A stretch of DNA of 59,404 nt from Streptomyces thinghirensis (lineage in GTDB: Bacteria > Actinomycetota > Actinomycetia > Streptomycetales > Streptomycetaceae). The notes below the pieces were generated by a model. That model saw only the letters and a list, made by a program, of their open reading frames with translations, was not told the DNA's origin and searched no databases. Below, in pieces: positions 5,241-22,837 of this stretch (position 1 is its first letter; the number at the start of each line of letters is the position of its first letter). A program made the position numbers and the translations under genes. The stretch is from positions 1-59,404 of the forward strand of contig JAKFGP010000049.1 in assembly GCA_021502835.1 (NCBI GenBank), written 5' to 3'.

Positions 5241-5397
5241 CCTGACTCCCAGCAGACCGGCAGACTTGAGAAACCACACTATCTCATCCCGCATGTGCCC
5301 GCCGCATCAGCCAGTGGGAAACGGGTAGTTGGCCTCCGCTTCACGAGGCCTCCGCTTACGATGGCCGCCCGCCTCGCCGGCCGCTCCCGGCCCCGCT

Positions 5398-5628
5398 TCA
5401 CCAGCAGGTGGTCGAACTCGCCCTCCTTCGCCCCGGCCAGGAAGGCGGCCACCTCCGCAGAGGTGTAGACGAGCGCGGGGCCGTCCGGATCACGGGAAGT
5501 TGCGCATCGCGATGCCTCCGTCCACGAGGGGCGACCTCGACGCAGTTGCCCTCGGCGTTGCTGTGCCGACTCTTCTTCCAGCAGGCGTCCAACAGGCTGG
5601 CCTGCACTCCGTTGCGCACTGGTGGCAC
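5398..5628 (-). CDS. DUF397-domain small protein
   Basis: This is a small acidic protein of the DUF397 family, partner of the neighbouring XRE/DUF5753 regulator. Family blocks are WKKSRHSNAEGNCVEVA at the N-terminus and, after a shift near 5500, RDPDGPALVYTSAEVAAFL with AGAKEGEFDHLL at the C-terminus. The GTG start at 5626-5628 is preceded by an excellent ribosome site, AAGGAGACC (5640-5632). The family normally ends soon after GEFD, which fits the stop at 5398; without the last shift the frame would run on to 5279. In this locus the DUF397 gene is transcribed before the regulator, the reverse of the commonest order. Confidence 0.85.
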   Translation of the reverse strand: MPPVRNGVQASLLDACWKKSRHSNAEGNCVEVAPRGRRHRDAQLPVIRTAPRSSTPLRRWPPSWPGRRRASSTTCW

Positions 5629-5713
5629 CGCGGTCTCCTTGCCGTTCGGGGGAGCGGACCGAGCCCCGTCCCGGTCCCCGTGCGCTCCCGTCCGATTTTT
5701 TCGCGCAATTTCT

Positions 5714-5750
5714 CGTGCAATTGCACGCGAGCGCTGTCAGCGTGGATAAT
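5714..5750 (+). promoter_or_regulatory. HrdB-like promoter overlapping a perfect 14-bp palindrome
   Basis: TTGCAC (5721-5726) and GATAAT (5745-5750) are separated by 18 bases, a good vegetative promoter reading toward the ATPase gene at 5811. The -35 lies in the perfect palindrome CGTGCAATTGCACG (5714-5727). Because this is the divergent region between the DUF397/XRE pair and the ATPase gene, the palindrome is a candidate operator for the XRE regulator. That role is inferred. Confidence 0.55.
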
Positions 5751-5810
5751 AGCCGTGGCGTCAACCCCTCGGTCGGCGCCCCCGTTCTGACGTCGCATCA
5801 GGGAGATGCC

Positions 5811-6390
5811 GTGTCGTCACCTGCGCATCCAACGCTCCGGTCGCCCGGCGAACCCGTGTCGGAGGCAGGCCCGGCAGAGCCGGTTCGGACAGCTCCGCGC
5901 GCGGCGCGACCGACCGCCGGCCGGGGCGAGTGGCCGTTCCCCGCTTCCCAGGCGAAGCACCACGCCCCAGGCGGCCCACCCGCATCCGCCGTGCTGCGCG
6001 TCGCGTGCAGCGGGGAGGGGTTCGCCCGGGCCCGGGTCTTCACGCGGGACACGTTGAGCGGCTGGTCCCTGGACCGGCACGCCGACGACGCGGTCCTCGT
6101 GATCACCGAGCTCGTCTCCAACGCCGTGAGGCACGCGGTGCCGTCGGCGGCGGCCGGCGCACCCGAGGTCAGGCTGGGGCTCGCCCTGGCCCCCGACCAC
6201 CTGACGCTGACCGTCTCCGACCCCAGGGACAACGCGCCGGTGTTCGCCCCGTCCGGGATCTCCGCCCTCCAGGAGCACGGACGCGGCCTGTGCATCGTCG
6301 ACGCCCTCGCCGAGGAATGGGGCTGGACCCCGGAGGCCCCCGGCGGGCAAGACCGTCTGGGTCAAGTTGTCGACCCGCCCCCTCACCTGA
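5811..6390 (+). CDS. RsbW-like ATP-binding protein (HATPase_c, anti-sigma kinase type)
   Basis: This is a stand-alone GHKL ATPase domain of the type that in Streptomyces acts as an anti-sigma factor serine kinase or related partner-switching protein. The N-box VLVITELVSNAVRHAV (about 6095-6140) carries the Mg-ATP binding Glu and Asn. VSDPRDNAPVF is the G1 box, and EHGRGLCIVDALAEEWGW with GKTVWVKL forms the ATP lid and final strand. The N-terminal 60 residues are Pro/Ala-rich and low complexity. The GTG start at 5811 has GGGAG just upstream. One shift near 6350 displaces the final strand. The target sigma factor is unknown. Confidence 0.85.
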
Positions 6391-6419
6391 CCCGACTGCC
6401 GCCGGAAGGGCCCCACACC

Positions 6420-6970
6420 ATGCGCAGCGCTCCGAAACCCGACCCGAGCACCCGGCGCACCGACCGTCAGACGCAGCCGCCCGGCTCGCCTCGGGCCGCC
6501 GGTCCCCTCGCGGGGCTGGACGGCGTGCCCCTGGAGCGAGATCCAGGACTCCAGCGGTTCCGCGGCGGCCATTCCCCGGCTGCTGCGCAAGGTCGCGTTG
6601 GGGGACGCCGAGACCGCCCGTGCCGCCCTCGGTGATCTGCGGAAACGCATCTGCCAGTACGGGTTCGTCGTCGAACAGGCCACCGCCGCGACCGTCCCCT
6701 CCTGTGGGAACTGGCGCAGCGGCCCCAGGTGAGCTGCCGGGCGCAGATCATCCAGCTGCTCAAGAACATCGCCGACGCCCGCCAGTGGGAGACCACCGCC
6801 ACCGCCTACCCGAAGCTGCTCAACCACCGGGAGAACCCCGTGGCATGGGAGCGCGCGGCGCGGCAGGCCGTCCGCGCCCGGCGGGACGGGCTGGAGCGGC
6901 GCTGCTGGCCGAGGGCGACAGCGAGATCGCGCGGGCCACGACCGAACTGGCCCGCACACTCGGAGACTGA
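6420..6970 (+). CDS. HEAT-repeat-like small protein
   Basis: This is a predicted cytoplasmic, helix-rich protein of about 180 aa. It resembles a Streptomyces family annotated as HEAT-repeat proteins, starting with a [24 protein letters not shown] motif. Visible helices include [57 protein letters not shown] and ARTLGD at the end. It starts at the ATG at 6420, thirty bases after the ATPase gene, and could be co-transcribed with it. Shifts lie near 6535, 6595, 6700 and 6895. No catalytic motif is visible. HEAT-like proteins commonly bind proteins, but no partner can be named. Confidence 0.7.
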
Positions 6971-7007
6971 GACCCGCGCCCTCCACGGGGGAGAAGGCGC
7001 GGGTCTC
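6969..7007 (+). terminator. Terminator overlapping the end of the HEAT-like gene
   Basis: Exact 12-base arms GAGACCCGCGCC (6969-6980) and GGCGCGGGTCTC (6996-7007) enclose a 15-base loop. The first arm overlaps the TGA stop at 6968-6970. Confidence 0.75.
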
Positions 7008-7160
7008 CCTCCGACGCACCGGCACACGGGCGGACGGGCCTACGGGTGTACGGCGCAGGGGCGTTCCGGCCTTCGGGACGGTGTGGCGTACTCCTCGGCG
7101 ACGGGGTAGGAAAGCGCGGGACGAGCGCTTGCCCCCTCGGTCACCAGGAGGACCACGCCG

Positions 7161-8932
7161 ATGGCGTCGCCGCTCGAAAAGCCACTCGATCACCGCTACC
7201 GGGGCGAACACCCGATACGCACGCTCGTCCTACCTGTTCCGCGCCGACCGCCGCCGTCTGGCGGGGGCCGTCGCGGTCTTCACCGTCAAGCACAGTCCCG
7301 TCTGGCTGCTGCCGCTCATCACCGCGTCGATCATCGACACCGTCGTCCAGCACGGACCGATCGGCGACCTGTGGACCAGTACCGGGATCATCATGTTCAT
7401 CCTGGTGGTCAACTACCCGCTGCACCTGCTGTACGTCCGCTCCTGTACGGCAGTGTGCGCCGCATGGAGCACCGCCCTGCGCTCCGCGCTGTGCACCCGC
7501 ATGCAGCAGCTCTCCATCGGCTACCACTCGCGGGTCAGCGCCGGCGTCCTGCAGGCCAAGGTCGTCCGGGACGTGGAGACGGTGGAGCAGATGGTGCAGC
7601 AGACCGCGGAGACAGGGCTGGGCGCGTTCACCGTCCTCACCGGCGGCCTGATCATCATCGCCGTGCGCACACCGGAGTTCCTGCCGGTCTTCCTCGTCGT
7701 CGTACCCGCCGCCTCCCTTCTCGTGGCCCGGCTCCGCGCCCGGCTGCGCAGCCGCAGCGAGCACTTCCGCCACGAGGTCGAGACCCTGTCCTCCAGGGTC
7801 ACGGAGATGACCCGGCTCATCCCGGTCACCCGCGCCCACGGCCTGGAGGGCAAGGCGCTGCGCCGCATGGACGGCACCCTGGACCGCCTGCTGACCTCCG
7901 GCAACCGCCTCGACCTGGTCAACGGCCGCTTCGGGTCGCTGTCCTGGGTCGTGCTCAACGTGGTCGGCGTACTGGTCCTCGCGGGCGCCGCGCTGGTCTC
8001 GTACCACGGCGTCTGGGGCGTCACCGCCGGCGACGTCGTCATGCTCAGCGCCTTCCTGACCACCCTCACCAGCTCCACGACAACGTTGGCGGGGCTGGCG
8101 CCGGTCATCACCAAGGGCCTGGAGTCCGTCCGTTCGGTCGGCGAGGTGCTCCAGGCCCCCGAACTGGAGGACAACGAGGGAAGGCGGAGCTCGCCTCGCT
8201 GCGCGGCGCCGTCACCTTCGAGGGCGTCGGGCACCTCTACGACGGCGACGGGCGGCCCGCCGTCAGCGACTCCACGCTCGCGGTCCGACCGGGCGAGACC
8301 ATCGCGCTGGTGGGCGCGTCCCGGGGCGGGCAAGTCCACCGTCCTCAACCTGGTCATCGGCTTCCTGCGGCCGACCGCGAGGCCGGCTGCTACTCGACGG
8401 CACCGATATGGACACCCTCGACCTGCGCACGTACCGGCGCTTCGTCTCGGTGGTGCCGCAGGAGTCCATCCTCTTCGACGGCACGATCCGGGAGAACGTC
8501 GCCTACGGCATGGAGGACGCCGACGAGGAGGCGGTGCGCGCGGCCCTGCGGGACGCCAACGCGCTGGAGTTCGTCGACCGGCTGCCGCAGGGCCTCGACA
8601 CCCTGGTCGGGAGCACGGCGCACGGCTCTCCGGAGGTCAGCGCCAGCGCCTGGCCATCGCCCGCGCGCTGATCCGGGACCCGAGGGTGCTCATCCTGGAC
8701 GAGGCCACCTCGGCGCTGGACACCCGCTCGGAGGCGCTCGTCCAGCAGGCGCTGGCCAGGCTCCTGCGCGGGCGCACCACGTTCGTCGTCGCGCACCGGC
8801 TGTCCACCGTGCGGGGTGCGGACCGGATCGTGGTGATGGGCGAGGGCCGGATCCAGGAGACCGGAACCCACGAGGAACTGCTGGGCAGGGGAAGGGGCGT
8901 ACGCGGCACTGCACAGCGGCCAGGCCGCCTGA
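7161..8932 (+). CDS. ABC exporter half-transporter (membrane domain fused to ATPase)
   Basis: This is a type I ABC exporter subunit that works as a dimer in the cytoplasmic membrane. The first half carries about six membrane helices (for example [65 protein letters not shown]). The ATPase half has a Walker A GASGAGKST-like stretch at about 8313-8340, broken by one extra base. The Q-loop region reads [18 protein letters not shown], the signature is [15 protein letters not shown], Walker B is [12 protein letters not shown] and the H-loop is [10 protein letters not shown]. The length (about 590 aa) is standard. The start is the ATG at 7161. Shifts fall near 7225, 8180, 8330, 8385, 8620 and 8892. 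The convergent TetR gene may not control it. Substrate unknown. Confidence 0.9.
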
Positions 8933-8960
8933 GCGGGTCCGGCGGCCAGTGCCCCGGACG

Positions 8961-9557
8961 TCAGGCCCCGGCCGGGCGTCGGCGCCCAGTACCTGGCCGG
9001 TGAAGTCCGCCAGTTGGGCCCGCATCCTCTCGCGCGGCACGCCCTCCGGGCCGGCCAGGTGCTCGACCAGGTCGGCCCGTACGGCGGCGAGCAGCGCGTG
9101 GGCGGCGAAGTCGCCGTCGGCGAGGCCGGGAACCTGCTCCAGCATGGTGCGCAGGAGGGTGTGCCAGCGCCCGTAGTGCGCCGCCCCGTAGGGAGCTGTC
9201 GCCGCCGGCGCCCTCCAGGACCAGGGCGAGGCGCCGGTTGTCGAGTTTGAAGCACAGGAGGGCGTCGAGCACGGCGGGGACGCGCTGCGGCGGGGAGTGC
9301 CGGGGCCCAGCGGTGGCGGACCCGTCGTGACGGCCTCCTCGATCGGCTCCAGCCGTGCCTCGTACAGCGCCTTGATCAGTCCGGTCCGGTCGCCGAAGGT
9401 CCGGAAGAGCGTCCCCTTGCCGACACCGGCCGCCGCCACGACGTCCGCCATGGTCACGTCGTCCGGGCGCGCGCAGCGGACGAAGAGGGTGTCGGCGGCC
9501 GCGAGAACGGCCGCCCGGTTGCGGGCCGCGTCCTTTGCGGGGCTTGCGCTCGGTCAC
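8961..9557 (-). CDS. TetR-family transcriptional regulator
   Basis: This is a repressor-type regulator with an N-terminal TetR helix-turn-helix: [20 protein letters not shown] then [19 protein letters not shown], followed by a ligand-binding helical domain ([21 protein letters not shown], [29 protein letters not shown] near the end). The GTG at 9557 is chosen because GAGGAG precedes it and TERKPRKD-type sequence leads into the HTH. The end is uncertain because of late shifts; 8961 is the stop nearest to the convergent ABC gene. About 195 aa is normal. Two palindromes in the divergent spacer (9599-9642) are its likely operators, so it probably represses the SnoaL-like/NmrA-like pair and itself. 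Confidence 0.85.
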
Positions 9558-9598
9558 AGGGGGTCTCCTCCCGTCGCGGGCTCGGTGCGTGTTGCGAA

Positions 9599-9642
9599 GC
9601 GGACCGCTGGTCCGTATCGTTCGAAGCGGACTGACGGTCCGC
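9599..9642. promoter_or_regulatory. Two operator-like palindromes in a divergent promoter
   Basis: GCGGACCGCTGGTCCGT at 9599-9615 and GCGGACTGACGGTCCGC at 9626-9642 share the design GCGGAC-N5-GTCCGC, with 27 bases between centres. They sit between the TetR gene and the SnoaL-like gene. This form and position are typical of autoregulated TetR operators. Binding itself is inferred. Confidence 0.75.
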
Positions 9643-9670
9643 ATTCTATGCGACGGAGGAGCACCCACCC

Positions 9671-10119
9671 ATGCCCACGCCCGCCCCGCCCACCGCGCCC
9701 CGCCCCGGCGGCGGACCTGTACCGCCACAGCCTCCGGCTCCTGCTGGACAAGGACATCGACGCCTGGGTCGGCCCAGCGGGCCGACGACGGGTCTTGGAA
9801 TTCCCCTTCGCCCCCGAGGACCGGCCCCGGCGGCTGGCGGGCCGGGGAGGCCGTCGCCGCCTACATGCGCCCCTATCCCGACCACATCGACCTGCACGAC
9901 TTTTCCCGACCTGCGGATCCACGAGACCACCGACCCGCCCGGACCGTCGTGGTGGAGATGCGCGGCGTGGGCCGGGTGGTGAAGACCAGCGCGCCCTTCG
10001 ACATGACGTACATCGCCGTCGTGACCGTCGAGGACGGGCGGTTCACCTCCTACCGCGACTACTGGAACCCGCTCACCCTCGAGGAGCCCGGCACCGACTT
10101 CACCGGGAGCGGACGATGA
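9671..10119 (+). CDS. SnoaL-like / nuclear transport factor 2 family protein
   Basis: This is a small alpha/beta-barrel protein of about 148 aa. Members include SnoaL-like cyclases, ketosteroid isomerase-like enzymes and many proteins of unknown activity. Typical features are LYRHSLRLLLDKDIDAWV near the N-terminus, EFPFAPEDRPRRLAGREAV, then TYIAVVTVEDGRFTSYRDYW and NPLTLEE at the end. The ATG at 9671 follows GGAGGAG (9656-9662). The stop overlaps the next gene's ATG (ATGA, 10116-10119), so the two are co-translated. Shifts lie near 9705, 9775, 9840, 9905 and 9945. It is probably repressed by the divergent TetR. The reaction cannot be inferred. Confidence 0.82.
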
Positions 10120-10962
10120 CCGGCACCGGGACCACGCTGGTCGTCGGAGCCACCGGCACGACGGGCGGCCGCACCGCCGGGCAACTGATCGCCGCGGGCC
10201 ACCGTGTGAAGGCCGCGAGCCGGCGCGCGACCCCGCTGGCCGGCGCGGAACCGGTCCGATTCGACTGGTACGACACCGCCACGCACGACGCGGCGCTCGA
10301 CGGCGCCGACCGCGTCTACCTCGTTCCGCCGCCGGGTGACTCGGACCCGGCCGCGGTCATGCTGCCCTTCCTGCGAAGGGCCCGCGCGCGGGCCTGCGGC
10401 GTGCGGTGCTGCTCAGCTCCCTCGGCCGTCCCCGAGGGGCGGCCCGGCGGTGGGCGCGGTGCACCGTGCCCTCCCCGGCCTGTTCGAGGAGTGGGCGGTG
10501 CTGCGGCCCTCCTGGTTCATGCAGAACTTCACCGGTACCCACGCCCACGCCGTCAGCGTCCGGGAGGACGGCACCATCCTGACCGCCGCCGGGAGCGGCC
10601 GCGTGGGCTTCGTCGACGCCGACGACATCGCCGCCGTCGCGGTGCGCGCCCTCACCGACGACGCGGCCCCCTGTGAGGATCCTGATCCTCACCGGTCCCG
10701 AGGCCCTCGACCACGATGACATCGCCGCGATCCTCACCCGGGCCGGCGGCCGCCTGTGGTCCACCGGCGCCTGACCCACGAGCAGTTGCGCGACCGCCTC
10801 GCGCAACTGGTGCCGCCGGATTTCGCCGCGATGCTGGTCGGCATGGACCAGGCCATCGCTCTGGGGGCCGAGGACCGCACCACCGACACCGTTCGGCGTG
10901 TCACCGGGCGTCCACCGCACGGATTTCGGGAGGTGCTGGAACGGGAGCTCGGTGTCCGGTGA
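10116..10962 (+). CDS. NAD(P)-binding NmrA-like oxidoreductase/sensor
   Basis: This is an atypical short-chain dehydrogenase of the NmrA/NAD(P)H-binding class. The dinucleotide motif LVVGATGTTGGRTAGQLIAA is at the very N-terminus, followed by GHRVKAASRR and DGADRVYLVPPPGDSDP. Further on are a RPSWFMQNF motif common in this class, GRVGFVDADDIAAVAVRAL and a C-terminal substrate-lid region. The length, about 282 aa, is standard. It overlaps the SnoaL-like gene by four bases and probably forms a two-gene operon under the TetR operators. Shifts lie near 10380, 10440, 10670 and 10745. NmrA-like proteins may act as quinone or nitro reductases or as redox sensors; the sequence does not decide this. 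Confidence 0.85.
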
Positions 10963-11148
10963 GTGACGTGCGAACGGGCGGGGGCGCCCACGCCCGTTCA
11001 GCCCCTTTTTCAACCAAGTCGTCGCTCGCTCGCGATAATGGTCGGACACGAAACGATGGATTCTCGTCAATTGCGAGCAGGACGCGCACGGTCTGATTGT
11101 TTCGGCCGGGTACGGGCATACGCAGCGAAACTCGAGAGGGGGCGCTTC

Positions 11149-11412
11149 GTGCTCGAACCGGACCCGAAGGTCGTCAGGGAGTTGCTGACGCGGTACGCGG
11201 CACTGCGGATCGCTCAGGCGGAGAGGGCAAGGCCGGCGACGGCGCGGGAGCTGGCGGACGTCAGCTACACGCTGTGCGTGATGACGGCGACGACCAGCAT
11301 TCACGACGCGGTGGCCAAGGCGGACGCGTTGCTGCTCGCCAAGGGACGGGCTCCGGACGCCGTCCGCGCGGCGGACCCCGACGGGGAGAGCGGCCTGTCG
11401 CTGGCCGTGTGA
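11149..11412 (+). CDS. DUF5133-domain small protein
   Basis: This is a small helical protein of the Streptomyces DUF5133 family, function unknown. Recognisable are EPDPKVVRELLTRYAALRIA and ARELADVSYTLCVMTATTSI, with a conserved Cys in SYTLCV, and a helix AVAKADALLLAKGR. I start it at the GTG at 11149 because GAGAGGGGG lies at the right distance upstream and the family begins a few residues before the PDPxVVRxLL motif; the open frame extends further up but without family similarity. No frame shift is seen in this gene. Confidence 0.78.
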   Translation: MLEPDPKVVRELLTRYAALRIAQAERARPATARELADVSYTLCVMTATTSIHDAVAKADALLLAKGRAPDAVRAADPDGESGLSLAV

Positions 11413-11465
11413 CACCGTCACGTCAGGGGCCCGTCTCGGACCGGAACAGCCGGGACGATCCGCGA

Positions 11466-11489
11466 GGCGGGCCCTACGCGGGGCCCGCC
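11466..11489. terminator. Bidirectional terminator between convergent genes
   Basis: Arms GGCGGGCCC (11466-11474) and GGGCCCGCC (11481-11489) form an exact 9-bp stem with loop TACGCG. It overlaps the stop codon of the minus-strand GlxA-type gene and follows the DUF5133 gene. Confidence 0.65.
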
Positions 11490-12445
11490 GACGCGGCAGG
11501 CTTCCCGTGGAACGCCGCGCGATAGGCGTACGGAGTGGTGCCGACCACCCGGCGGAACCGCCGCTCGCGGAAGGCGGTGGGGAGCCGAACCCGGCCTGCC
11601 GCGCGATCCGTTCGATCAGTGGTCGCCGTTCTCCAGCAGGTACTGGGCCCGCCGCACCCGCGCCCGCAGCAGCCACTGCAGCGGAGTGGTGCCCGTCTGT
11701 TCCCGGAACCGTCGGCTGAAGGTGCGCTCGCTCATGCCCGAGCGCGCCGCCATCGCCCCGAGGGTGACCTCCCCGCCAGGTTGTCCTCGATCCACTCCAG
11801 CAGCGGCTCCAGGTCCGAACCCGCGGCACGGGCGGGTGCTCGTGCACGATGAATGGGCCTGGCCGCCCTCCCGCTCCAGCGGCACGACACACATCCGGGC
11901 GGCGTGCGCGGCGACGGCCGACCCCAGATCACGGCGGATCATGTGCAGGCACATGTCCAGACCGGCGGCGGCGCCAGCGGAGGTGAGGATCTGCCCGTTG
12001 TCGACGTACAGCACGTCCGGCTGCACCTCCACGCGCGGGTAGCGGCGGGCCAGTTCCGCACGCGGCCATCCAGTGGGTGGTGGCCCGCAGCCCGTCCAGC
12101 AGCCCGGTCTCCGCGAGCACGAAGGCACCGACGCACACCGACGCGATCCGCGGTACCCGCACCGGCGGCCCGCCGCAGCGCCGCGAGGACGCGTTCCGAG
12201 GGCGGGCCGTGCTCCTCGGAGCGGCCCGGCACGATAATGATCGTGTCGGCGGTCTCCAGCGCCTCCAGGCCCAGGTCGATACGGAGGGTCAGCCCGTCCG
12301 TGCGCACCTCGGGTGACTCCGCGCACAGCCGGACCCGGTAGGGGCTGCGCCCGTCGGGCAGCCGCGTCCAGTCGAACGCCTGCATGGGCGCCGCCATGTC
12401 GAACGGCACCACGTCGTCGAGGACCAGGATCGCCACCGAGTGCAT
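11474..12445 (-). CDS. GlxA-family transcriptional regulator (DJ-1/PfpI domain plus AraC HTH)
   Basis: This is a cytoplasmic regulator with an N-terminal glutamine-amidotransferase-like DJ-1/PfpI domain and a C-terminal AraC DNA-binding domain. The N-terminal part shows [32 protein letters not shown] and the nucleophile-elbow region [21 protein letters not shown] later block is [20 protein letters not shown]. The HTH part shows [20 protein letters not shown] and [20 protein letters not shown]. About 320 aa is typical. The start is set at the ATG at 12445; a GTG at 12457 is an alternative. Shifts lie near 12165, 12060, 11870, 11840, 11780, 11630 and 11580. Ligand and targets are unknown. Confidence 0.88.
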
Positions 12446-12648
12446 GACCGCCACGATATGCGGATTCCCGCCATGGGCAGAACCCCCGTGCACGGCCCTC
12501 GCTCCACCTTGCCCTGCCGGATCTCTCCTGGTGAAGGCGTTGGCGAGATTCCGTTGGAAGCTGTCGTTTCAGCCCCTGTGCGATCACCCGCCGTCTTTCT
12601 AGCGTAGCTCCGACCGCATCGACCGAACTGCCTCCCGGGCCCCGACCG

Positions 12649-13139
12649 ATGACCAAGATCCTGCTGTCCCTCCACGTCCTGGCCGCCATCATCGCCATCG
12701 GGCCCGTCACCGTCGCGGCCAGCATGTTCCCGCCGGCCGTCCGACGTGCGGTGGTAGCCGGTGCCCGCGGGGGCCGGGGGCCGGAACGGACGCCGGGGAC
12801 GTGGGCACGGTACGGCTGCTGCACCGCATCTGCCGGGTCTACGCCGGTCTCGGCATCGCGGTTCCGGTCCTCGGCTTCGCCACCGCCGCGGCGATGGGTG
12901 TTCCTGGGGGACGCATGGCTCATCACGTCCATCGCGCGCTGACCGCGGCCGCCGCCGGCCTCCTGATCGCCTTCGTCCTGCCCCGCCAGGAGGAACTCCT
13001 GGAGCAGCTGACCGACCGGCAGCCCGTCGAGCGCGCCCGTACCGCCCGGCTCGCCATGTTCACCGGCCTGTTCAACCTGCTGTGGGCCACGGTCACGGTC
13101 CTCATGATCGTCCGGCCGGGCTCCACGACCGGCGCGTGA
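12649..13139 (+). CDS. Small integral membrane protein, DUF2269-like
   Basis: This is a protein of about 160 aa with four predicted membrane segments: ILLSLHVLAAIIAIGPVTVA, RVYAGLGIAVPVLGFATAAA, LTAAAAGLLIAFVLP and LAMFTGLFNLLWATVTVLMI. The first segment with its early His resembles DUF2269 and related four-helix membrane proteins. It starts at the ATG at 12649 and ends in GSTTGA. Shifts fall near 12765 and 12925. It is divergent from the GlxA-type regulator, so it could be that regulator's target, but no operator was found. Function unknown. Confidence 0.7.
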
Positions 13140-13245
13140 GCCGCCGTCACCTTGTGGGTGGAATGCGCACCACCGGGTGAACGGGCGCCTAGACTGCTGG
13201 GGTCGCGCCTCCGTACGGGGGCGGACGACACAGGCACGTTGACGG

Positions 13246-13460
13246 GTGTTCCAGGATTCCCCATCTACGACCGACTCGTCGCCGAACGCGGTGACGTCCC
13301 CGAGCAGGTGCGGCGGGACGCCGAGCGTGTGAGCAGGGAGCTGGAGGTTGTCATGCGCCCGCTGCGCTCACCCGGCCACCTGCCCGGCGCCGAACGGCAG
13401 CCGTCCCCGGGCGCCGGTTGGCAGCGCACCGCCCTGCTGCCCGGCCCCCGCCCGCACTAG
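13246..13460 (+). CDS. Small conserved hypothetical protein
   Basis: This is a short, charged reading frame of about 70 aa with the block FPIYDRLVAERGDVPEQVRR followed by DAERVSRELEVVM, which looks like a real amphipathic helical protein. A GTG at 13246 with one lost base just after it (VFQ then FPIYD) gives the most natural start. The C-terminus (PGAERQPSPGAGWQR) is Pro/Gly-rich and its frame is uncertain. It converges on the tgmB gene with only a few bases between. I do not recognise a function. Confidence 0.5.
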
Positions 13461-13487
13461 GGGCCGGCGAGGCGGGCGCACCGCACC

Positions 13488-14473
13488 TCACCCGACGACC
13501 GCCGTGCCGGGGCCGCCCGCGTCCACCGGGTCCTCCGGCCCGGGCCGGGCCAGCCACTCGGCGATGGTGCGGGCGATCGGCTGGCCCGTGTCCACCTCGA
13601 CGAAGCCGAACTGCCCCGACTGGTTGCACTCCAGGAACCACCAGGTGCCGTCGCCGTCCTCGGCGAAGTCGAGGGCACCGTAGGCCAGTCCCGCCGTGCG
13701 GAGGTAGGCGCGGACGGATTCGGCGACGCGCGGCGGCACCTCGGCGGGCCGCCACGGCTCGGCGGACGCCGTGAAGCGGACGTCCACCTCGTCGGGGTCC
13801 GAGCCCGCGAGGGTCGTCTTCCGCGCGGCCAGCAACTCGTCGCCGACGACGGTGAGGCGGACGTCGGCACGCTTGGCGAACCCGGCGCTGCAGCAGGGTC
13901 GGGCCGTGGGCGACGGCGGAGAAGTCGGCCTCGGGCGGAACCCTGCTGGTCGGCACCGCCGAGGGCGGGTCCTGCGGATGGGCGCCCGAGACGGGCTTGA
14001 CCACCAGGTCCGGGTAGCGCTCGGCGAACTCGCGTGCCGCCCGTGGGAACGTCGTGATCAGCGTGGCCGGCACGGGCAGCCCGCACTGCTGGGCGAGACG
14101 CAGCTGCCAGGGCTTGTACCGGGCCCGGTGCGCCGCGTCGGGCTGGTTCATCCAGCGCGCCCCGCAACCGCGGAGCATGCCGTAGAGCGCCTGCCCGGAC
14201 TCCTCGGTCAGCCACGCGGAGGGCTCGGCGGCCCGCGTGGCCGCGCCGCCCGGCCTGCGCACCCAGACGGACCGCAGTCCGCCGATGCTCACCAGGCGGC
14301 CCCCGAGGACAGATGGCCCCGGAACGAGCCGTGCACGAACTCACCGGAGAGCGCGACGGAGTCGGTCAGATCGGCGGGTCCAGGCGGACCACCGGGACTC
14401 CCGACGCGTTCAGGTGCACGACCACCGTGTCCGCGGTGACGTCCTCTTCACAGGTCAGGATCAAGACGGTCAT
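13488..14473 (-). CDS. tgmB: ATP-grasp peptide maturase of a graspetide locus (TgmB, SAV_5884 family)
   Basis: This is an ATP-grasp ligase that modifies the TgmA precursor by forming side-chain ester or amide links. The N-terminus TVLILTCEEDVTADTVVVHL with NASGVPVVRLDPADLT is characteristic of the family. The middle has RWMNQPDAAHRARYKPWQLR, LAQQCGLPVPATLITTFP and DLVVKPVSG, a nucleotide-binding lysine strand. The C-terminal catalytic block has YGALDFAEDGDGTWWFLECN then QSGQFGFVE, where the D, E and N match ATP-grasp metal ligands. The ATG at 14473 lies 16 bases after the precursor stop. About 328 aa is normal. Shifts lie near 14395, 14300, 13885 and elsewhere. No methyltransferase gene of the tgmC type follows. 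Confidence 0.9.
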
Positions 14474-14489
14474 TCTCGACGACCCGTGT

Positions 14490-14681
14490 TCAGTCGTCGA
14501 AGTGAGTCTTCGACCCCGCGGTGGAGGTCGTGGTCCCCAGTTCTCTCAGCAGCGCATGGTCACGGGCGGCCGCCCGCCCGTCCAGAAGCACGTTCAACTG
14601 CCGCCCGGAGTCGTAGACGTACGGAGTCGTGGCTTCCAACTCCACTGCCGGACGTGCGTAGTTGAGGGCGAACGGTTTCAT
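14490..14681 (-). CDS. tgmA: Graspetide precursor peptide (putative ATP-grasp-modified RiPP, TgmA)
   Basis: This is a 63-residue precursor, intact in one frame. The leader contains the family hallmark PFALNYARPAVELE followed by TTPYVYDSGRQLNVLLDGR. The core is the C-terminal end, ELGTTTSTAGSKTHFDD, rich in Thr/Ser/Lys nucleophiles and ending in two Asp acceptors, as expected for omega-ester or omega-amide ring formation by an ATP-grasp enzyme. The ATG at 14681 has GGGAGAG upstream. It is followed after 16 bases by tgmB, so it forms a two-gene unit. Where the leader is cleaved and which residues are linked cannot be read from sequence. Confidence 0.92.
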   Translation of the reverse strand: MKPFALNYARPAVELEATTPYVYDSGRQLNVLLDGRAAARDHALLRELGTTTSTAGSKTHFDD

Positions 14682-14769
14682 CGTCTCTCCCTGGTCGGTG
14701 CTGCGCCGAGCAGGCGATGGTCCCTTGCGCCGTCGCCTGGTCCGCCGACTGCCTTCGGCTTCCAGAGAC

Positions 14770-14799
14770 TTATACGAATCGAACGGGTGATTGGTTTCC
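14770..14799 (-). promoter_or_regulatory. Possible ECF-sigma-type promoter for tgmAB
   Basis: On the minus strand GGAAAC (14799-14794) is followed after 17 bases by CGTATAA (14776-14770), about 90 bases before the precursor start. A GGAAC-like -35 is typical of Streptomyces ECF sigma factors. The match is short and therefore tentative. Confidence 0.3.
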
Positions 14800-15125
14800 T
14801 TACGCAGCGTAGTCATGGGGCGGATCGGCGCCTTCACGCCGGTCCGCGGCGCCCCCGCAACGCCCGCCGAGAGAGCCGCGCGCCGATCGCAGGGCGAGCA
14901 GCAGTACACCGATGTCGTCCAGGTAGACGGGATCGGGCACCAGGTCGGTCGGCAGTACCGGTAGAGGACGGCGCCCCAGAAGACCCACCGCGGACCGGTG
15001 GGGAGACCGGCACGCCTGAGATCCCGTCGGGTGCGGACCAGCCGCACCAGGACGCCGACCGCCGTCGCGAGGACGACCGCCGCGAGCAACACCGCCGCGA
15101 CGATCACCACTGTGGTCGTATCCAC
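14800..15125 (-). CDS. DUF1232 (YkvA-like) small membrane protein
   Basis: This is a protein of about 108 aa. A membrane helix VVIVAAVLLAAVVLATAVGV is followed by a basic stretch (RLVRTRRDLRRAG) and the DUF1232 signature YLLPTDLVPDPVYLDDIGVL, which resembles a re-entrant or second membrane helix. The GTG start at 15125 has GAGGAGGGGG upstream. The signature is split by a shift near 14955. It lies just upstream of tgmA on the same strand with about 120 bases between, so read-through is possible but a separate promoter is likely. The molecular function of the family is not known. Confidence 0.8.
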
Positions 15126-15399
15126 CCCGCCCCCTCCTCATGGTGCGTGCTCGTGCTGCGCGGCACACGCCTTCTCTCCCCGGATGCCCGCTCAGGGGCG
15201 GCGACAAGTCCGCGGGCAAGGGTCTCTCATCCCCTGTGGCCCACTCCAGTGGCATGGTGCGGTGGACGTGCTTAGTAATGGTCAGCACAGAGCGCGAGTC
15301 GCATGTCGGGGACGCAGGGCGGCCGCACCCCCACCACACGGAGAGATCACGACTACCGGCTCTTCATCACCTCGTTCGCCCGAGTACGCCATATCCGCC

Positions 15400-16817
15400 G
15401 TGGACCTGCCCACCAGGGAGACGACCACGGCCACCGGCACGCACCCCGGTGCGTCCGCCGGCCGTGCAAGCCGACGCCGAGGCGTCAACCGTCCACCCCT
15501 CGGCCGCCCGTTCGCCCGCCCCTCAGCCGCCCGCACCCCAGCCGCCCGCACCCCAGCCGCCCGTCCTCCAGGAACCAGCACCCGCCCCGCACGACCCCGC
15601 ACCCGGCCTCCAGGAGCCCTTCCGCTCAGGAGCCCTCCGTCCAGGAGCCCTTCGTCCAGGATCCCGCCACCCACGAGGGAGCGGTGCACGAGTACGGCGA
15701 TCCCGTCGGCGACCTGGTGCGTGCCGCCGTGGCCGACCGGCCGCTGGAGGAGGTCGTCGACCTGATCACGATGCTGGAGGGGTCACCCCCAGTACGCGCA
15801 GGCCACGATCGACGCCCTGCGCGCGGTCGGCGTGAACCGCTCCGTGGAGGACGTCACTCGGCTGGTCGGCCTGCTGACCCGCCCGCCGCGCCATTCGGAC
15901 AGCGCGGACGAGGCGATCCGAGCCGCGGCGGAGTGCCGCTCGGTCGAGGACGTCACCCGCCTGATGGAACTGCTGCACCGCACCCCCCTGGAACCGCACT
16001 GCGGGCAGGAGGCCGTACGGGCCGCCGCCACCGGCCGACCCGTCGAGGAACTGGTTCAGCTGATCGGCCGGCTGGCCGAGGACGGGCGGGTGCGCCCGGA
16101 CCGCCCCCCGACGCCCGGCACCTGCGGGCGGCACTGGACGGGACCGGCGACGACGGCGAACCGGGACCCGACGACCGTCCGGCCGGACTGGCCGGCGCCT
16201 TCACCGCGGCGGACCGCCGCGGTCGCGAGCGCTCGCAGGACACCGCGCCTGGGCCGCCGGGGACGTGACCGGGACCAGAGCGCGCCTCGCGTGGGCGCGA
16301 GCAGGACCCCGAGTCGCACGACCGGGACCGTGCGTCCCGTGACCGGCGGCCGTGCGTCCGGTGACCGCGACCGTGCGGCCCGCCGGTCCGCCCGGGGCGC
16401 GGCCTGGCCGGCCTGGCTCACCGTCGCCGTCCTGGCCGGGTGCGGGGTGGCCTACTTCCCGCTGCACCAGGGCGACGCCTCCGCCCGCGCCTACGGGGTG
16501 CAGCCCTCGGCCTGTCGGCGCTCTGCCTGGTGCTGGCCCTGCTGCTCACCGTGAGGCCCGCCGTACCGCTGCTCGCCGTGGCGGTCGTGGGGCCGGCGGT
16601 GCTAGCCGCGCCGTGCTGTACGGCAGTGTGACCCCGTCGGCTCGGGTGTCCCCGGCCGTGGACTCACCCTTCGGCGCCCACTCTGGATCGCCGTCGTGGT
16701 CGCCGTACTGGCGTCGCTGGTCGCGCTCCTGGCGCTGTGCGTACGGGTGGCCTCGCAGGCGCCCGCGAGGCGCTGGTCGGCCCGCCCGATGGCCGGCGTG
16801 AGCCGTGCCGCGACTGA
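15400..16817 (+). CDS. Repeat-containing membrane protein with Pro-rich N-terminus
   Basis: I do not recognise a named family. Three regions are visible. The N-terminal 100 residues are Pro/Gln/Glu-rich (QPPAPQPPAPQPPVLQEPAP, then SAQEPSVQEPFVQDP). Next come four helical repeats of about 34 residues built on the pattern RPxEExxxLIxxL: ADRPLEEVVDLITML, NRSVEDVTRLVGLL, CRSVEDVTRLMELL and GRPVEELVQLIGRL, spaced by AAA/AIRA helices. The C-terminal third carries about four membrane helices (WLTVAVLAGCGVAYF, LSALCLVLALLLTVRP, LLAVAVVGPAVLAAAVLYG, LWIAVVVAVLASLVALLALC). The GTG at 15400 is a guess. Shifts lie near 15465, 15620, 15785, 16050, 16510, 16610 and 16680. A strong terminator follows. Confidence 0.65.
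15524..15563 (+). repeat. Short tandem 15-bp repeats encoding Pro-rich segment
   Basis: A unit close to CCAGCCGCCCGCACC is repeated almost three times in a row and encodes the repeated five-residue unit QPPAP. Being in frame and a multiple of three, it can expand or shrink without breaking the gene. Confidence 0.75.
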
Positions 16818-16833
16818 CCGCCCGGCCGCCGCA

Positions 16834-16881
16834 CGCGGCATGTGGTCCGCGCCGGACTTCCGGTGCGGACTACATGCCGCG
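16834..16881. terminator. Very strong bidirectional terminator hairpin
   Basis: Arms 16834-16855 and 16860-16881 are 22 bases long with only two non-Watson-Crick positions and a four-base loop ACTT. It separates the membrane repeat protein (stop at 16817) from the converging molybdenum oxidoreductase operon, whose last codons (stop at 16870) lie in the second arm. Confidence 0.8.
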
Positions 16882-19028
16882 TTCACGTGCCCAGCGTGCC
16901 CAGGCGGGTGCTTCCGTGTTCGGCGTTATGTCGGTGAGCACCCGGTCCTGGGGGTGAGCGGCAGTTCCCGGAAGCGGATGCCCGTGGCGTGGTGGGACTG
17001 CGTTGCCTATTGCCGTGTCGAGCCGACGATGCCGGGATCTCCCCGATCCCCTTGCTGCTCCATGGGGTTGAGGTGGGCGTCCTCCCCGTCGACCCAGTGC
17101 GCCTCCACCGCCGCCACGTCGGCGTGCGCTGGCACGTGGATAAGAGGCCGAGGGTCGGACTCGGCGAAGTCGCCGAACGCGGAGTCCACCGTGCTGTCCT
17201 CGGTCAGCGCCATGCCCAGGCCCATCGTCATGCCCCCGATGAACTGCGAGCGGGCCGGGCCGGGCGTTGAGGATGCGCTCCGCCGCGAAGACGCCGAGCA
17301 GCCGCGTCACTCTTACCTCACCGGTGACCGTGTCCACGGTCACCTCGGCGAAGTGCGTCGCACAGCGTCGCGTGGCGTAGGGGCTCTCGGCGTCGGCGGT
17401 CCCGGAGGTGTCGGCGTCGGCCGCGACGCCCTCGTCGGGCAGCGCGAGCAGCTCGGCCAGCCGGCCGGTCAGCTGCACGCACGCCTCGTGCACGGCCCAA
17501 CCCCATGAGGCGGTGCCTCGAGGAGCCGCCGGCCATCGGCGCGAAACCGATGTCGCTGTCGGCGACTTCGATACGGACCCGGTCCAGCGGGACACCGAGG
17601 CGTCGGCCGCGACCCGGCGCAGACCGTCCGGGCGCCGTCCCGATGTCGGTCGCGTTGACGCGCACCACGAAACCGCCGTCGGGCAGGGGCCCGCGCGGAC
17701 GCCGCGCACGGCGACACCAGGACCGGATACGGCGGCCGCGGCCACCCCGCTGCCGATGAGCAGCGGTCCGGCAGCGCGGAGCACGGGCGCGGATCGCGGC
17801 CCTCCCACCCGAAGCGGCGGGCACCCTCGCGCAGGCACTCCACCAGATGCCTGCTGCTGAACGGCTCGCCGCTGTCGGGCTCGGTCTCCGGCTCGTTGCG
17901 GATCCGCAGCTCCACCGGGTCCATGCCGAGTTCCACGGCCAGTTCGTCCACGCGGACTCCAGCGCGTACATGCCGGGGCACTCGCCGGGCGCGCGCATCC
18001 AGGACGGGCGTGGGCACATCGAGCCGCACCACTCGGTGGGCCGTGCGCAGGGGCGGGGGCGGCGTACATGACGCGCGCCGGAACGCCGCCTGTTCCACGA
18101 ACTCCCTTCACCCGGAGGTGCTCGCGTGTCACCTGACGGAAATAGAGGGACGTGAGCCGGCCGTCCGCGTCGGCGCCGAGGCGCAGCCGGTGCAGGGTCG
18201 GCGCGCGGTGGCCGATGACGGCGGGCAGGTAGCGGCGCGGCAGCGCGACGGTGACCGGCCGGCCGGTCTCGCGTGCCGCCATCGCGGCCAGCACCACCTC
18301 GGGGCGGGCGTGCGCCCTTCGACCCGAAGCCGCCGCCCACGTGCTCGGCGAGCACCGTGATCCGGTCCTCGGCACCTCGAACATCCTGGCGAGTTCCGTG
18401 CGCATGGCGCTGGTCCCCTGGCTGGAGGAGTGCACGGTCAGCCGGTCGCCGTCCCACTGCGCCGTGCTGGTGTGCGGTTCCATCGGGTGGTTGTGCAGTG
18501 GCGGTATCCGGTACTCGACGTCGACGCGCGTCGCCGACGAGGCGAAGGCGCCCTCGGGGTCGCCGTGTTCGGTGACGGCCGGAAGCCGCCGTTGGCGGAC
18601 TCGGGGACGTACGCCTCGGATGCGCCGCGGTGAGCGTCACGTCGTGGCCCTCCGCCTCGTACGTGACACGGACGGCGGCGGCACCGGCGCGGGCCCCCCC
18701 GCCTCCAGCGTCTCCGGCTACCACCAGGCCGACGAACCAGCCCCGGTGCGGTACGTCGGGCTCTGCAGCAGGGCCAGGGTGGGGTCGTCCGGGTCCCCGA
18801 GCCGGGGCGCGTTCTCGTGCGTGAGCACCGCGAGTACGCCGGGCACGGCGAGCGCGGGGCAGGGTCGACGCCGGTCACCCGGCCCCGCGCGACCGCCGCC
18901 GGCACGGGCCAGCCCTGGGCGCGGCCCGGGAGTCGTACTCGGCGGCGTACCGGGCGGTGCCGGTGACCTTCTCCCGCCCCCTCCCGGCGCTCGACCGGAG
19001 CGCCCAGGACGGTTTCGGTGCCGGTCAT
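16870..19028 (-). CDS. paoC: Molybdenum-binding subunit of an aldehyde/xanthine-type oxidoreductase (PaoC-like)
   Basis: This is the large catalytic subunit of a molybdenum-cofactor hydroxylase, of the XdhA/CoxL/PaoC class. Family blocks in order are [90 protein letters not shown], the [11 protein letters not shown] block and [38 protein letters not shown] and a final IGEIGIVGST with the cofactor-side Glu complete the set. The ATG at 19028 gives [20 protein letters not shown]. Length about 720 aa agrees with PaoC. There are many shifts, so residue-level conclusions are unsafe. It is the last gene of a three-gene minus-strand operon. The substrate may be an aromatic aldehyde or purine; sequence alone does not decide. 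Confidence 0.87.
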
Positions 19029-19053
19029 GGGGTCCTCCTCGTGGACGCCGGGT

Positions 19054-20047
19054 TCAGGTGGTGGCGGGCGGCGCGAGGCGGCCCAGTACGTCCAGGGACA
19101 GCCGGCGGGCCAGCGGCACCTGTAGGCGTTGTCCCGCAGCGGCTCAGCGGCGGCCAGCTTCCAGGTCGACGGCGTGCTCGAACGCCGCCGTGGTGGGCGC
19201 CGCGCCCACCAGCGCGTCCTCGGCCCGCCGCGCCCTCCAGGGCCGGTGCGCCAGGGCTCCGAAGGCGATGCCGGCGCGGTCCTACCACCCTTCCCGCATG
19301 TGCAGGACGACGGCGACGGAGGCCAGGGCGAAGGCGTACGACGCCCGGTCGCGGGCCTTGCGGTACGCCGACGGCAGCCCGGCCGTGGCGGACGGCAGGA
19401 CCACCCCGGTGATCAGCTCGCCGGGATGGATCTCCGTGTCCCGCTCCGGGTGCGGGCCCGGCAGCCGGTGGAAGTCGGCGGCGGGCACACTGCGCGTGCC
19501 CGCGGGGCCGTGCAGCTCCACGCGCGCGTCCAGGGCGACAGAGCGCCACCGCCATGTCCGAGGGGTGGGTGGCGATGCACTGCTCGGGTGGCCGAGCACC
19601 GCGTGGTCGCGGTGCACGCCCTCCAGCGCGCCGCAGCCGGTGCCGGGCTCTGCGCTTGTTGCACGGCTTGGACAGGTCCTGGAAATAGGGGCAGCGGGTG
19701 CGCTGCAGCAGGTTGCCGCCCGTGGTGGCGGCGTTGCGCAGTTGTCCCGAGGCGCCCGCCAGCAGGGCCTGGGACAGCGCCGGGTAGCGGTCGCGGACGG
19801 CGGGGTGCGCCGCGAGGTCGCTGTTGCGGACCATCGCGCCGACCCGCACGCGCGCCGTCGGGCAGCTCCTCCACCGCGTCCAGCGGGAGGCGGGTGATGT
19901 CGACGAGGGCGGCGGGCGTCTCCACGCCGAGCTTCATCAGGTCGAAAGGTTGGTGCCGCCGCCGAGATAGCGGGCGCCGGGGTGGGCGGCGAACGCGTCG
20001 GTGGCCTCCTCGACGCTGCCGGCCCGTACGTAGGCGAAGGGCTTCAC
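19054..20047 (-). CDS. paoB: FAD-binding subunit of the molybdenum oxidoreductase (PaoB-like)
   Basis: This is the middle electron-transfer subunit of the complex. It has the FAD-binding motif [20 protein letters not shown], then [20 protein letters not shown] and [20 protein letters not shown] with KPCNKR. The Cys in RCPYF and PCNKR resembles the [4Fe-4S] insert of PaoB-type enzymes. Later blocks are [30 protein letters not shown] and [20 protein letters not shown]. The GTG start at 20047 overlaps the stop of paoA (GTGA at 20044-20047). Shifts lie near 19950, 19850, 19650, 19595 and 19545; the in-frame stop near 19285 is probably also an error. About 330 aa matches the family. Confidence 0.87.
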
Positions 20048-20606
20048 GGGATCACGTCCTCGACGGCGTCGGCGATGCGCGGATACGCACCGCACCGGCA
20101 GATGTTTCCGCTCAGCCGCTCGCGGATCTCGTCCCGGACCAGCGGAACGGGCTCACCGGAGGCGCCGCCGGGTCGGTGACGTGGGACGGGTGTCCGGCCG
20201 CGGCTTCGGCGAGCACTCCGACCGCGGAGCAGATCTGGCCCGGCGTGCAGTACCCGCACTGGAAGGCGTCGCGCTCCAGGAACGCCCGCTGCATCGGATG
20301 CAGTTCCTCCCCGTCCCCGGCGAGCCCCTCGACGGTGGTGATCTCGCAGCCGTCCAGGGCGACGGCGAACAGCAAGCAGCTGTTGACCCGCCGCCCGTCC
20401 ACCAGGACCGTACAGGCGCCGCACTGCCCGTGGTCGCAGCCCTTCTTGGCGCCCGCGAGGCCTGAGATCCTCCCGCAACAGGTCCAGCAGGACCCGGCGG
20501 TGGTCGACGGTGAGGGTGTGCGGTTTGCCGTTGACGCGGAGCCTGGTCTCCGATCGGGACGTCTGAGGTGGGGAAGCGGGGCGGTGCCCTCGTGCTGGCT
20601 GTCCAT
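20044..20606 (-). CDS. paoA: 2Fe-2S subunit of the molybdenum oxidoreductase (PaoA-like)
   Basis: This is the small iron-sulfur subunit that passes electrons from the molybdenum site to FAD. It carries the plant-ferredoxin-type cluster motif GCDHGQCGACTVLVDGRRVN with later Cys in NSCLL. The C-terminal cluster domain has AFQCGYCTPGQICSA and SGNICRCGAYPRIADAVED. The leader TRLRVNGKPHTLTVDHRRVL is typical. I place the start at the ATG at 20606; a longer N-terminus with an export signal, as in some PaoA proteins, cannot be excluded. Shifts lie near 20550, 20465 and 20160. It is first in the operon and is coupled to paoB by GTGA. No molybdenum insertion chaperone gene is in this window. Confidence 0.88.
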
Positions 20607-20720
20607 GGCGTCGATGACCTTCCGGGACGGGCCGTGCTGCCGTTCCGTCCGCGTATCCACGTCGGGCCGGCTGACACGTGAGGGTGCCCTCAGTCGGCGG
20701 GCCCGTCCTAGGGTGGCGCC

Positions 20721-21421
20721 ATGACCACGGGATCCGCGGAACGCCCACATCCGGCTCACGTCGTGCGCGACGCCTACGAAGCCTCTCGCGGCGGTGGTCC
20801 GCCCGCTGGGGGAGGACGACTCGTGGCTGCCGACCCACTGCACCGGATGGGCGGTCCGCGATCTGGTGTTCCACCTGCTCGCGGACGCCCAGCGGCCCTT
20901 TTTTTGGTGGCCCCTGCACACGCCCACCGGTGACCCCCTCTGACCGGGACGCCGTCACCTACTGGCGGGACTGGACGCCCGATACCGACGGCGCGGTCCA
21001 GGAGCGCGCGCTGGAACCGGGTCTGCGCCGGCATGATCCCCGAATTCGGCCAGTTGAAAGACCTGTATCTGGAGACGGCGGCGGCCGCGGTCACGGCCGC
21101 GTCGGCGGCCGAGCCCCGGAGCCGCGTGGGCACCCAGGGACCGCCGTCCTGACCGTCGCCGACCTGCTCACGACCCTCGGCGTCGAGGCGACCGTCCACC
21201 ACCTCGATCTGACCGTGGCGCTGCCCACCGCACCGGGACCGTCCCTCGCCGGGCTGACCGCCGTCCGCGCCACACTCGACGGACTCCTGGGCCGCCCGGG
21301 TGCCGCTGGATTGGAGCGACGAGCACTACGCCCCGCGCCGCCACCGGCCGCACACCGCCTCACCGAGAGCGAACGGCACGCCCTGGGACCCGACGCGGAC
21401 CGCGTCCCGCTCTTCGGCTGA
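20721..21421 (+). CDS. Maleylpyruvate isomerase-family (mycothiol-linked, DinB-like) protein
   Basis: This is a four-helix DinB-like protein of the mycothiol-dependent maleylpyruvate isomerase family. The N-terminal domain shows VVRPLGEDDSWLPTHCTGWA then VRDLVFHLLADAQR, where the His in FHLLAD is the usual first metal ligand. The middle shows FGQLKDLYLETAAAAVTAAS. The block LLTTLGVEATVHHLDLTVAL carries the HHLDL motif with further metal-binding His. The C-terminus has LDWSDEHYA. The ATG at 20721 lies on the strand opposite to paoA with a divergent spacer of about 115 bases. Shifts lie near 20790, 20900, 21035, 21110, 21300 and 21345. Substrate unknown; the family covers many detoxifying or uncharacterised proteins. 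Confidence 0.78.
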
Positions 21422-21475
21422 CCGAGCCGCCCGGCCGGCGGCCCGGACGGCGCCGCCCGCCGGGCCCGGCGGCGG

Positions 21476-22609
21476 TCAGTCCCTCGCGTGCGGCGCTCTG
21501 CCGCGCGGTGCCCGGCTCGCCGGCCTCGGCACGCGGTGTCCGGCCCGGGCCTCTGAACCTCTCCAGCGTGCGGGTCAGACTCCGCAGCGGCGACACCTGG
21601 GGCGCCTCGGCCGGCGGGGGACCGGTGGGGGCGGACGCGGCGGACTCCGGTACGCGGCCAGGGCCTCGGCCGCGCGTTCGGCCGCCTCCCGGTACAGGTC
21701 CCGGGACTGCGTCATGGCCTCCAGCGCCTCGGCGTACATGGCCACCAGCTTGCGCTCGCGGTCCAGTTCCTCCGCCATGGTCAGCAGCCGCCAGTCCTCC
21801 CGCAGCGCGGTGAGGGCCTCCTCCGCGCCGTCCGGCAGCGGCCTCGGCAGCGCGGCGAAGGACGTCACCGCCGCGATCAGGGCGGTGGGCTCGGAGCCGT
21901 CCAGGAAGACGGAGCGGACGGAGAAGTCCCCGGCCTCGTAGTCCGCCGGGACCGGGAAGCCGGGCAGCACCACGGCGCCGCCGCGCGCGGCACCTGGACG
22001 CCGAAGTCCTCCAGGGCCCCAGTTGACCACCCGCAGTTGCTGCGGCGCGGCGCGGTGCTCGACGGCACGCGGTGCCGCAGGCCGGAGGCAACCGGTCCGC
22101 CAGCGGCACCCGGCCGCGATGGTCGGGGGTCATCGCCTCGTGCACGACGACGTGGATGTTCCACGGGCTGCGCCCGGCCGCCTTGAGCAGCCGGCGCAGG
22201 GTCTTGTCGTCGTCGGGCAGGGTGTTGATGCCCCGCAGCCGCAGCCCTGGCGGCGTCGCGGTCCCAGGTGACGTCCGGGTCGTCGGGCCAGAACATCGTG
22301 GCGGGGGGAGGCCAGGCGGGGATCCCAGGCCTCCTCGGCCTCCGCGAGCAGGGTCCACTCCTGCCCGCCGGCCGAACCGGGCGCCAGGACCAGTCTGGCC
22401 CGCACCGTGACGGCGCCCGCGCCTTCCAGCGCGCCTCGAAGATCCGAGGGCCGACGGCCTCGCCGTCCGGCTGCTCCTCGGCGGGCAGTTCCAGGAAGTC
22501 GTCGATGACGCGGCTGTCCCTTGAGCCGCTGCAGGGTGTGCCGGACGGTGTCCTCCGCCGAGGATCCGACGTGGCGGCCGCGAGCGGGCCACACCGTGGG
22601 CGGAGTCAT
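21476..22609 (-). CDS. Unrecognised protein with coiled-coil C-terminus
   Basis: I do not recognise this family. The reconstructed frames give about 370 aa: an N-terminal ARGRHVGSSAEDTVRHTLQR, then IDDFLELPAEEQPDGEAVGP, ARLVLAPGSAGGQEWTLLAE, DDKTLRRLLKAAGRSPWNIH with VVVHEAMTPDHRGR and GGAVVLPGFPVPADYEAGDF. A long helical part follows, LLTMAEELDRERKLVAMYAE and MTQSRDLYREAAERAAEALA, suggesting a coiled coil. The C-terminus is Pro-rich and disordered. The helical part is conserved-looking in codon usage and is certainly coding. Start (22609) and end (21476) are estimates. It converges on the isomerase-family gene and diverges from the SDR gene. A role as a structural or signalling protein is only a guess. 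Confidence 0.55.
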
Positions 22610-22837
22610 GGGGCGGGCGGTGGCAGAGGTCGGGCATGAGTCCATCGGGAGGCAGAAGGGGGGCACGGACACGCCGCAAGTATCGTCGCCGCAGGTCAGC
22701 GGAGAGCACCTGGGGGTCCGCCGAGCGGGCGGGGCGCGGCACCGTTCGCGGTGCGGTGGGCGGCGCACGAGGTGCGCCATGGGCGAGGGTGGACAGGAGT
22801 ACTGCGACCGACCGTACGGCACGAGAAGGAGCGACCG

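Follow-up and report, generated by a model that had tools for sequence, protein, structure and literature searches.

Described Systems Closest to the Locus

Strep_pep (PF14404) is one of the Pfam families that emerged from a 2009 survey (PMC8939145). Precursors of the PF14404/TIGR04186 kind are found with synthetases of the TIGR04187 family, and the pair described here, which lies in a stretch of 59,404 nucleotides (the window), is another copy of this arrangement that differs in nothing essential, save that its synthetase frame is broken in the sequence as given. Most of the NCBI-named relatives among those listed carry the title "putative ATP-grasp-modified RiPP." The group 13 graspetides (fuscimiditide, amycolimiditide, albusimiditide, and SsfA) are likewise made by ATP-grasp graspetide synthetases. 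In graspimiditides, ester links join Thr and Asp (PMC13001092), and the co-occurrence of a methyltransferase with group 13 graspetides and graspimiditides is said to be almost always observed (PMC13097080; PMC13001092). In the four characterized graspimiditides, this methyltransferase acts on a loop Asp of the cross-linked peptide with Gly next to it in every case, and followers other than Gly are thought possible (PMC13001092). The window locus differs from group 13 in both respects, having neither a PIMT-type methyltransferase gene in the cluster nor an Asp in the core loop.

We take the product of the locus to be, probably, prunipeptin (Streptomyces prunicolor; MIBiG BGC0002725) or its twin. 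Prunipeptin is reportedly encoded by a two-gene cluster of precursor and ATP-grasp ligase only, and its 2021 abstract is said to describe a peptide with two rings, closed by one ester and one isopeptide bond; a variant was reportedly named 15HW. The reported two-gene layout matches the pair-only layout found here, and the window core contains a Lys. For comparison with the 15HW variant, the fifteenth of the last 18 residues of the window precursor is His. The prunipeptin gene cluster family has 3,589 members, 99.53% of them in Streptomyces (PMC11888242), numbers that would fit a peptide as widespread as PF14404. The core strings had no match in the literature searched.

A solved enzyme very close to the PF14404 branch is available in the form of PDB 9bou_A ("MvdD-like pre-ATP grasp domain-containing protein"), to which a 307-residue stretch of the synthetase of G001, the nearest genome compared, matches end to end at 652 bits. 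Weaker structure matches for the same stretch were 5ig8, AMdnB (7m4s), CdnC (7mgv), and 5ig9, while none of the solved chains matches the precursor and no paper in the literature searched names 9BOU. This structure, together with co-expression in E. coli, would ease study of the peptide.

A Two-Gene Locus of the PF14404 Type

The locus lies on the minus strand, where a 63-aa precursor gene (14681-14490) is followed by an ATP-grasp gene (14473-13488) whose ATG lies at 14473, 16 nt past the precursor stop. Its features are as follows.

14685..14691, minus strand: purine-rich stretch resembling a ribosome-binding site, ahead of the precursor start (read from the sequence)
14490..14681, minus strand: intact 63-aa precursor gene of tgmA type, in PF14404 (Strep_pep) (profile matches; 62 of 63 residues as in G001)
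14474..14489, minus strand: gap of 16 nt from precursor stop to synthetase start (read from the sequence)
13488..14473, minus strand: ATP-grasp graspetide synthetase gene, tgmB type, TIGR04187, in three frames as given (profile matches; open in G001)

The 63-aa ORF matches PF14404 over its full length with 128.8 bits (E 8.4e-38) and TIGR04186 with 48.3 bits (E 8e-13), each against a cut-off of 25. The Pfam E-value leaves no room for a match by chance, which we therefore discarded as an explanation. All but one of the 63 residues are identical in G001, a genome that shares 23% of sampled 31-letter words with the window. The 16-nt gap is the commonest length in relatives, found in 49 of 79 named loci and 32 of 84 other places, and the ten bases directly 5' of the precursor start are strongly conserved in an ungapped alignment of 80 loci. 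The sequence-only reading had called a tgmA-tgmB type graspetide locus in which a 63-aa precursor is followed after 16 bases by an ATP-grasp ligase; the coordinates agree with this description, and the call is borne out by a precursor that scores over the PF14404 and TIGR04186 cut-offs and by synthetase pieces that fit TIGR04187. The locus is thus an ordinary, already recognized two-gene graspetide pair, and we put the probability that it is a complete locus of the PF14404 (Strep_pep) type at about 85%.

To place the pair among its relatives, we used two sets: 80 named loci, all of them titled Streptomyces, and a sample of 150 genomes of the genus of G001, taken to be Streptomyces. The PF14404 table for the sample held 92 rows, of which six were dropped (one covering residues 1-46 and five covering residues 30-57 inside long frames). 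The remaining 86 full-length places lie in 75 of the 150 genomes.

The Synthetase Gene Is Split into Three Frames in the Window

The synthetase of G001 is a single open frame that scores 383.8 bits against TIGR04187 (cut-off 350). In the window, the gene is not one ORF: three pieces in three frames match TIGR04187 positions 1-31, 62-201, and 205-311, in order, with 39.1, 141, and 136.3 bits (family cut-off 350), and the C-terminal piece is 98% identical to the G001 copy over 131 columns. The ATP-grasp ligase that the sequence-only reading placed after the precursor is therefore present as a gene but not as one ORF, and its breaks had gone unmentioned. Judged by its frames, the gene as it stands in the window would not yield a complete enzyme. 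Among relatives, all 86 HMM-found PF14404 places have a downstream ORF of over 280 aa, and 79 of 80 named loci have one longer than 250 aa; the exception, L099, lacks an open synthetase ORF where the search was made.

A Near-Invariant Core Peptide

14493..14534, minus strand: predicted core, last 14 codons, TTTSTAGSKTHFDD, with putative hydroxyl and Lys donors and two putative C-terminal Asp acceptors (predicted boundary and roles)

All 80 named loci share an identical core, although they were picked by precursor similarity with a search word inside the core, so that this identity is biased. Core variation is more fairly judged from the 86 HMM-found places; in these, the core TTTSTAGSKTHFDD is identical in 51, and the other PF14404 cores vary solely at core positions 1, 3, 5, and 9. 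Across 83 sequences of 63 aa, pN/pS was 0.069 in core residues 50-63 versus 0.525 and 0.399 in the two parts of the leader. The peptide is thus almost invariant across half of the sampled Streptomyces genomes, a pattern more suggestive of a single conserved target or receptor than of an antibiotic under diversification; the literature found gives no biological role for it.

Lys58 is absent in 20 of the 86 cores, where it is replaced by Gln (9) or Ala (11). An amide from Lys58 is therefore not obligatory in the family, and the linkage type cannot match across all members. Two of the Ala58 cores, in G031 (L163) and G154 (L152), carry Lys at residue 54, hinting that link donors may swap place. 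If the amide donor is indeed optional, the ring system would in some species be closed by esters alone. Eleven of the 75 PF14404 genomes have two PF14404 pairs each, ten of them with one Lys-type and one Ala- or Gln-type pair, and G027 with two Lys-type pairs.

The likely product, as predicted from the core, is a small graspetide linked through its C-terminal Asp-Asp. With two acidic residues in the core, at most two side-chain links would be expected. By analogy with the family, the leader would dock on the synthetase via its conserved PF.L.YA stretch and its QLNVL.DGR.A segment, and the synthetase would use ATP to activate both C-terminal Asp side chains. The activated Asp residues would then be joined to the side chains of core Thr/Ser and, where present, Lys, with the loss of up to two waters, yielding a small, at most bicyclic peptide; leader removal and export would fall to proteins encoded elsewhere. 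No aspartimide would be expected from a PF14404 pair, because the enzyme is lacking and the core has no internal Asp. The expected product is unmethylated and ester- and/or amide-linked, which agrees with what the sequence-only reading had predicted for a tgmA-tgmB type locus without tgmC.

Absence of a Methyltransferase Is the Family Rule

The sequence-only reading was correct that the locus has no methyltransferase gene: seven TIGR04188-family queries (six TgmC-type and one from G001) gave no tblastn match to a TgmC-type methyltransferase at E<=1e-3 in all 59,404 bases of the window. With the same seven queries, none was found in the 80 named loci (up to 8 kb per side, some shorter) or in 11 longer PF14404 loci, while matches were obtained in 21 of 23 control loci, a set in which three are places fetched twice and six are sources of the queries. 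In the 150 genus genomes, a TIGR04188 gene among the matches listed lies within 50 kb of none of the 86 PF14404 places, and one lies within 3 kb of 85 of the 95 non-PF14404 TIGR04187 genes listed; these counts cover stronger genes only, the synthetase being among the listed TIGR04187 matches for only 55 of the 86 PF14404 places. Of the remaining ten of the 95, six proved to have a methyltransferase match no more than about 5 kb away, and the other four have none in the 12-15 kb examined.

The synthetases and cores point the same way. In a synthetase tree, a quick search with very long branches and no outside root, the 86 PF14404 sequences and the window piece are separated from 20 control rows by a branch with an SH-aLRT of 100. 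Within the last 14 residues, all 86 PF14404 cores contain no D, E, or N apart from the two C-terminal Asp. By contrast, Asp-Gly occurs within the last 40 residues of 16 of 17 control precursors (15 distinct); six of the 23 control loci were excluded because they yielded no precursor. Absence of a methyltransferase is the rule among the PF14404 relatives examined. The sequence-only reading described the locus as being without its usual methyltransferase, a description that fails because such a gene is usual in neither set of relatives (0 of 86 by listed TIGR04188 matches within 50 kb; 0 of 80 named loci by tblastn). Nor is it supported that the gene has gone missing, given that the PF14404 synthetases occupy their own side of the tree and that none of the 86 cores has D, E, or N ahead of its terminal Asp-Asp. 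As a finding, a missing methyltransferase matters little where absence is the rule of the family.

Alternative Readings of the Locus

The three breaks within about 1 kb of synthetase could be real, marking a decaying pseudogene pair, and L099, one of the 80 named relatives, also lacks an open ORF at the place searched. We consider this unlikely, because the surroundings carry more breaks per kb than the synthetase does: aligned to G001 within 5097-23514, the window shows 95% identity and 201 indels in 18,240 bases. The precursor is moreover intact and nearly identical to that of G001, and every HMM-found relative keeps an open frame of more than 280 aa. Since 193 of the 201 indels are not multiples of three, the frame breaks look like errors; they are most likely sequencing or assembly errors rather than decay, although sequence alone is no proof of this.

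Two further readings concern the methyltransferase. A TIGR04188-type enzyme encoded elsewhere might modify the precursor in trans, and G001 does have one TIGR04188 gene over the cut-off (L139, on G001:C47) with no listed TIGR04187 gene within 3 kb and, using one query, no ATP-grasp match in the 17.5 kb around it, though the start of this gene partly reads N and is not fully seen. Over-cut-off TIGR04188 genes occur somewhere in 32 of the 75 PF14404 genomes, but also in 28 of the 75 others (Fisher p 0.62, a value that ignores the relatedness of genomes), and they are absent from the other 43 PF14404 genomes, while generic PIMT-like matches below the cut-off are present in 150 of 150. No core among the 86 offers an internal Asp, and modification in trans is in our judgment very improbable. 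The sequence-only reading had named a methyltransferase gene elsewhere, acting on this precursor, as what would overturn its view; the genome comparison bears on this indirectly and finds PF14404 genomes no richer in such genes. The L139 enzyme could instead serve a different kind of peptide, of a methyltransferase-first type. The locus might also derive from group 13 graspimiditides through recent loss of the methyltransferase: its precursor and synthetase fall in the same broad families (TIGR04186 and TIGR04187), and other-kind loci without a methyltransferase do exist (4 of 95 among the matches listed). We find this scarcely credible, however, given the separate tree side of the PF14404 synthetases, a core that differs from that of group 13, and the lack of a listed methyltransferase near any of the 86 relatives. 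A complete two-gene pair of the PF14404 type thus remains our preferred reading.

Neighboring Genes Are Not Part of the Conserved Unit

As the sequence-only reading had noted, the downstream neighbors of the pair are a convergent small gene (13152-13460, plus strand) and, beyond it, overlapping ORFs (12649-13139, plus strand) that look by eye like a membrane protein and match no family over the cut-off. The convergent small gene, which has no Pfam family over the cut-off, recurs in 57 of the 80 named loci, of which 77 have at least 4 kb of downstream and 74 of upstream flank; across other branches, 53 of the 86 fetched stretches are too short to show it. A DUF1232 gene lies 300-518 nt upstream in 68 of the 80 named loci. 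It is found at 35 of 66 Lys-type and 0 of 20 Ala/Gln-type places (2 of the 86 cut by a contig end), and we rejected it as a third component because it reflects the local synteny of one branch. Across 11 loci from different branches, no neighbor is common beyond close relatives, and the pair itself, a precursor and a ligase, is all that these diverse loci share.

Several genes within 5097-23514, identified by eye as those for an ABC transporter, an AraC-type regulator, and the upstream DUF1232 protein, also appear frame-broken. The window has about 11 indels per kb there relative to G001, and ORFs read in this indel-rich region need care.

A Conserved 27-bp Element Upstream of the Precursor

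14773..14799, minus strand: conserved non-coding 27-bp element, promoter- or operator-like, beginning 118 nt before the precursor start (alignment, genome scans)

This element lies 117-130 or 59-61 nt ahead of the precursor start in most Lys-type loci. A loose pattern found it in 46 of 66 Lys-type places (one a shifted match), against a background of 24 in 2,082 segments; the pattern also matched 3 of 20 Ala/Gln-type places, there with unrelated sequence. Allowing up to three mismatches, the element occurs exactly once in each of 12 carrier genomes (L209-L220) and in none of eight genomes without PF14404; the 12 were chosen because it had already been found there, so that the informative parts are the single copy and the absence from the eight. 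Its halves (GGAAAC, 17 nt, CGTA) make it a candidate ECF-type promoter.

Other identities were considered for the element and set aside. An ORF does cover it in the window, but its frame agrees with that of the precursor in no more than 15 of 43 sequences, and the element shows no common start or stop and no sign of translation. The inverted repeat that might have marked a palindromic operator in the window recurs in just 5 of the 66 Lys-type places and 2 of the 20 others. No known RNA was matched in Rfam up to E 1 across 13300-15300.

Viewed jointly, the core and the element would fit a genus-wide peptide that serves in signaling or housekeeping and not as a weapon, is regulated through a dedicated 27-bp element, and has an optional amide donor; we offer this reading tentatively, doubting it more than we believe it. 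It is the near-invariant peptide and its private cis-element, not a missing gene, that deserve attention.

Loci of Other Kinds in the Sample

For TIGR04187 loci, a working rule is that the methyltransferase accompanies a core Asp-Gly, with two exceptions: L009, which has an adjacent methyltransferase yet no Asp-Gly, and L157 (G027:C7:155000-167000), where Asp-Gly is present yet no methyltransferase was matched. Three loci without a methyltransferase match in 12-15 kb, L221, L222, and L223 (G017, G018, and G027 contig 2), have similar Ser/Asp-rich cores that contain Asp-Ser but no Asp-Gly. At L157, the precursor is not of the PF14404 type and has Asp-Gly close to its end; it stands with a TIGR04187 synthetase and no TgmC match in 12 kb, which makes this locus a real candidate for a missing methyltransferase, the kind of case that the sequence-only reading had in mind.
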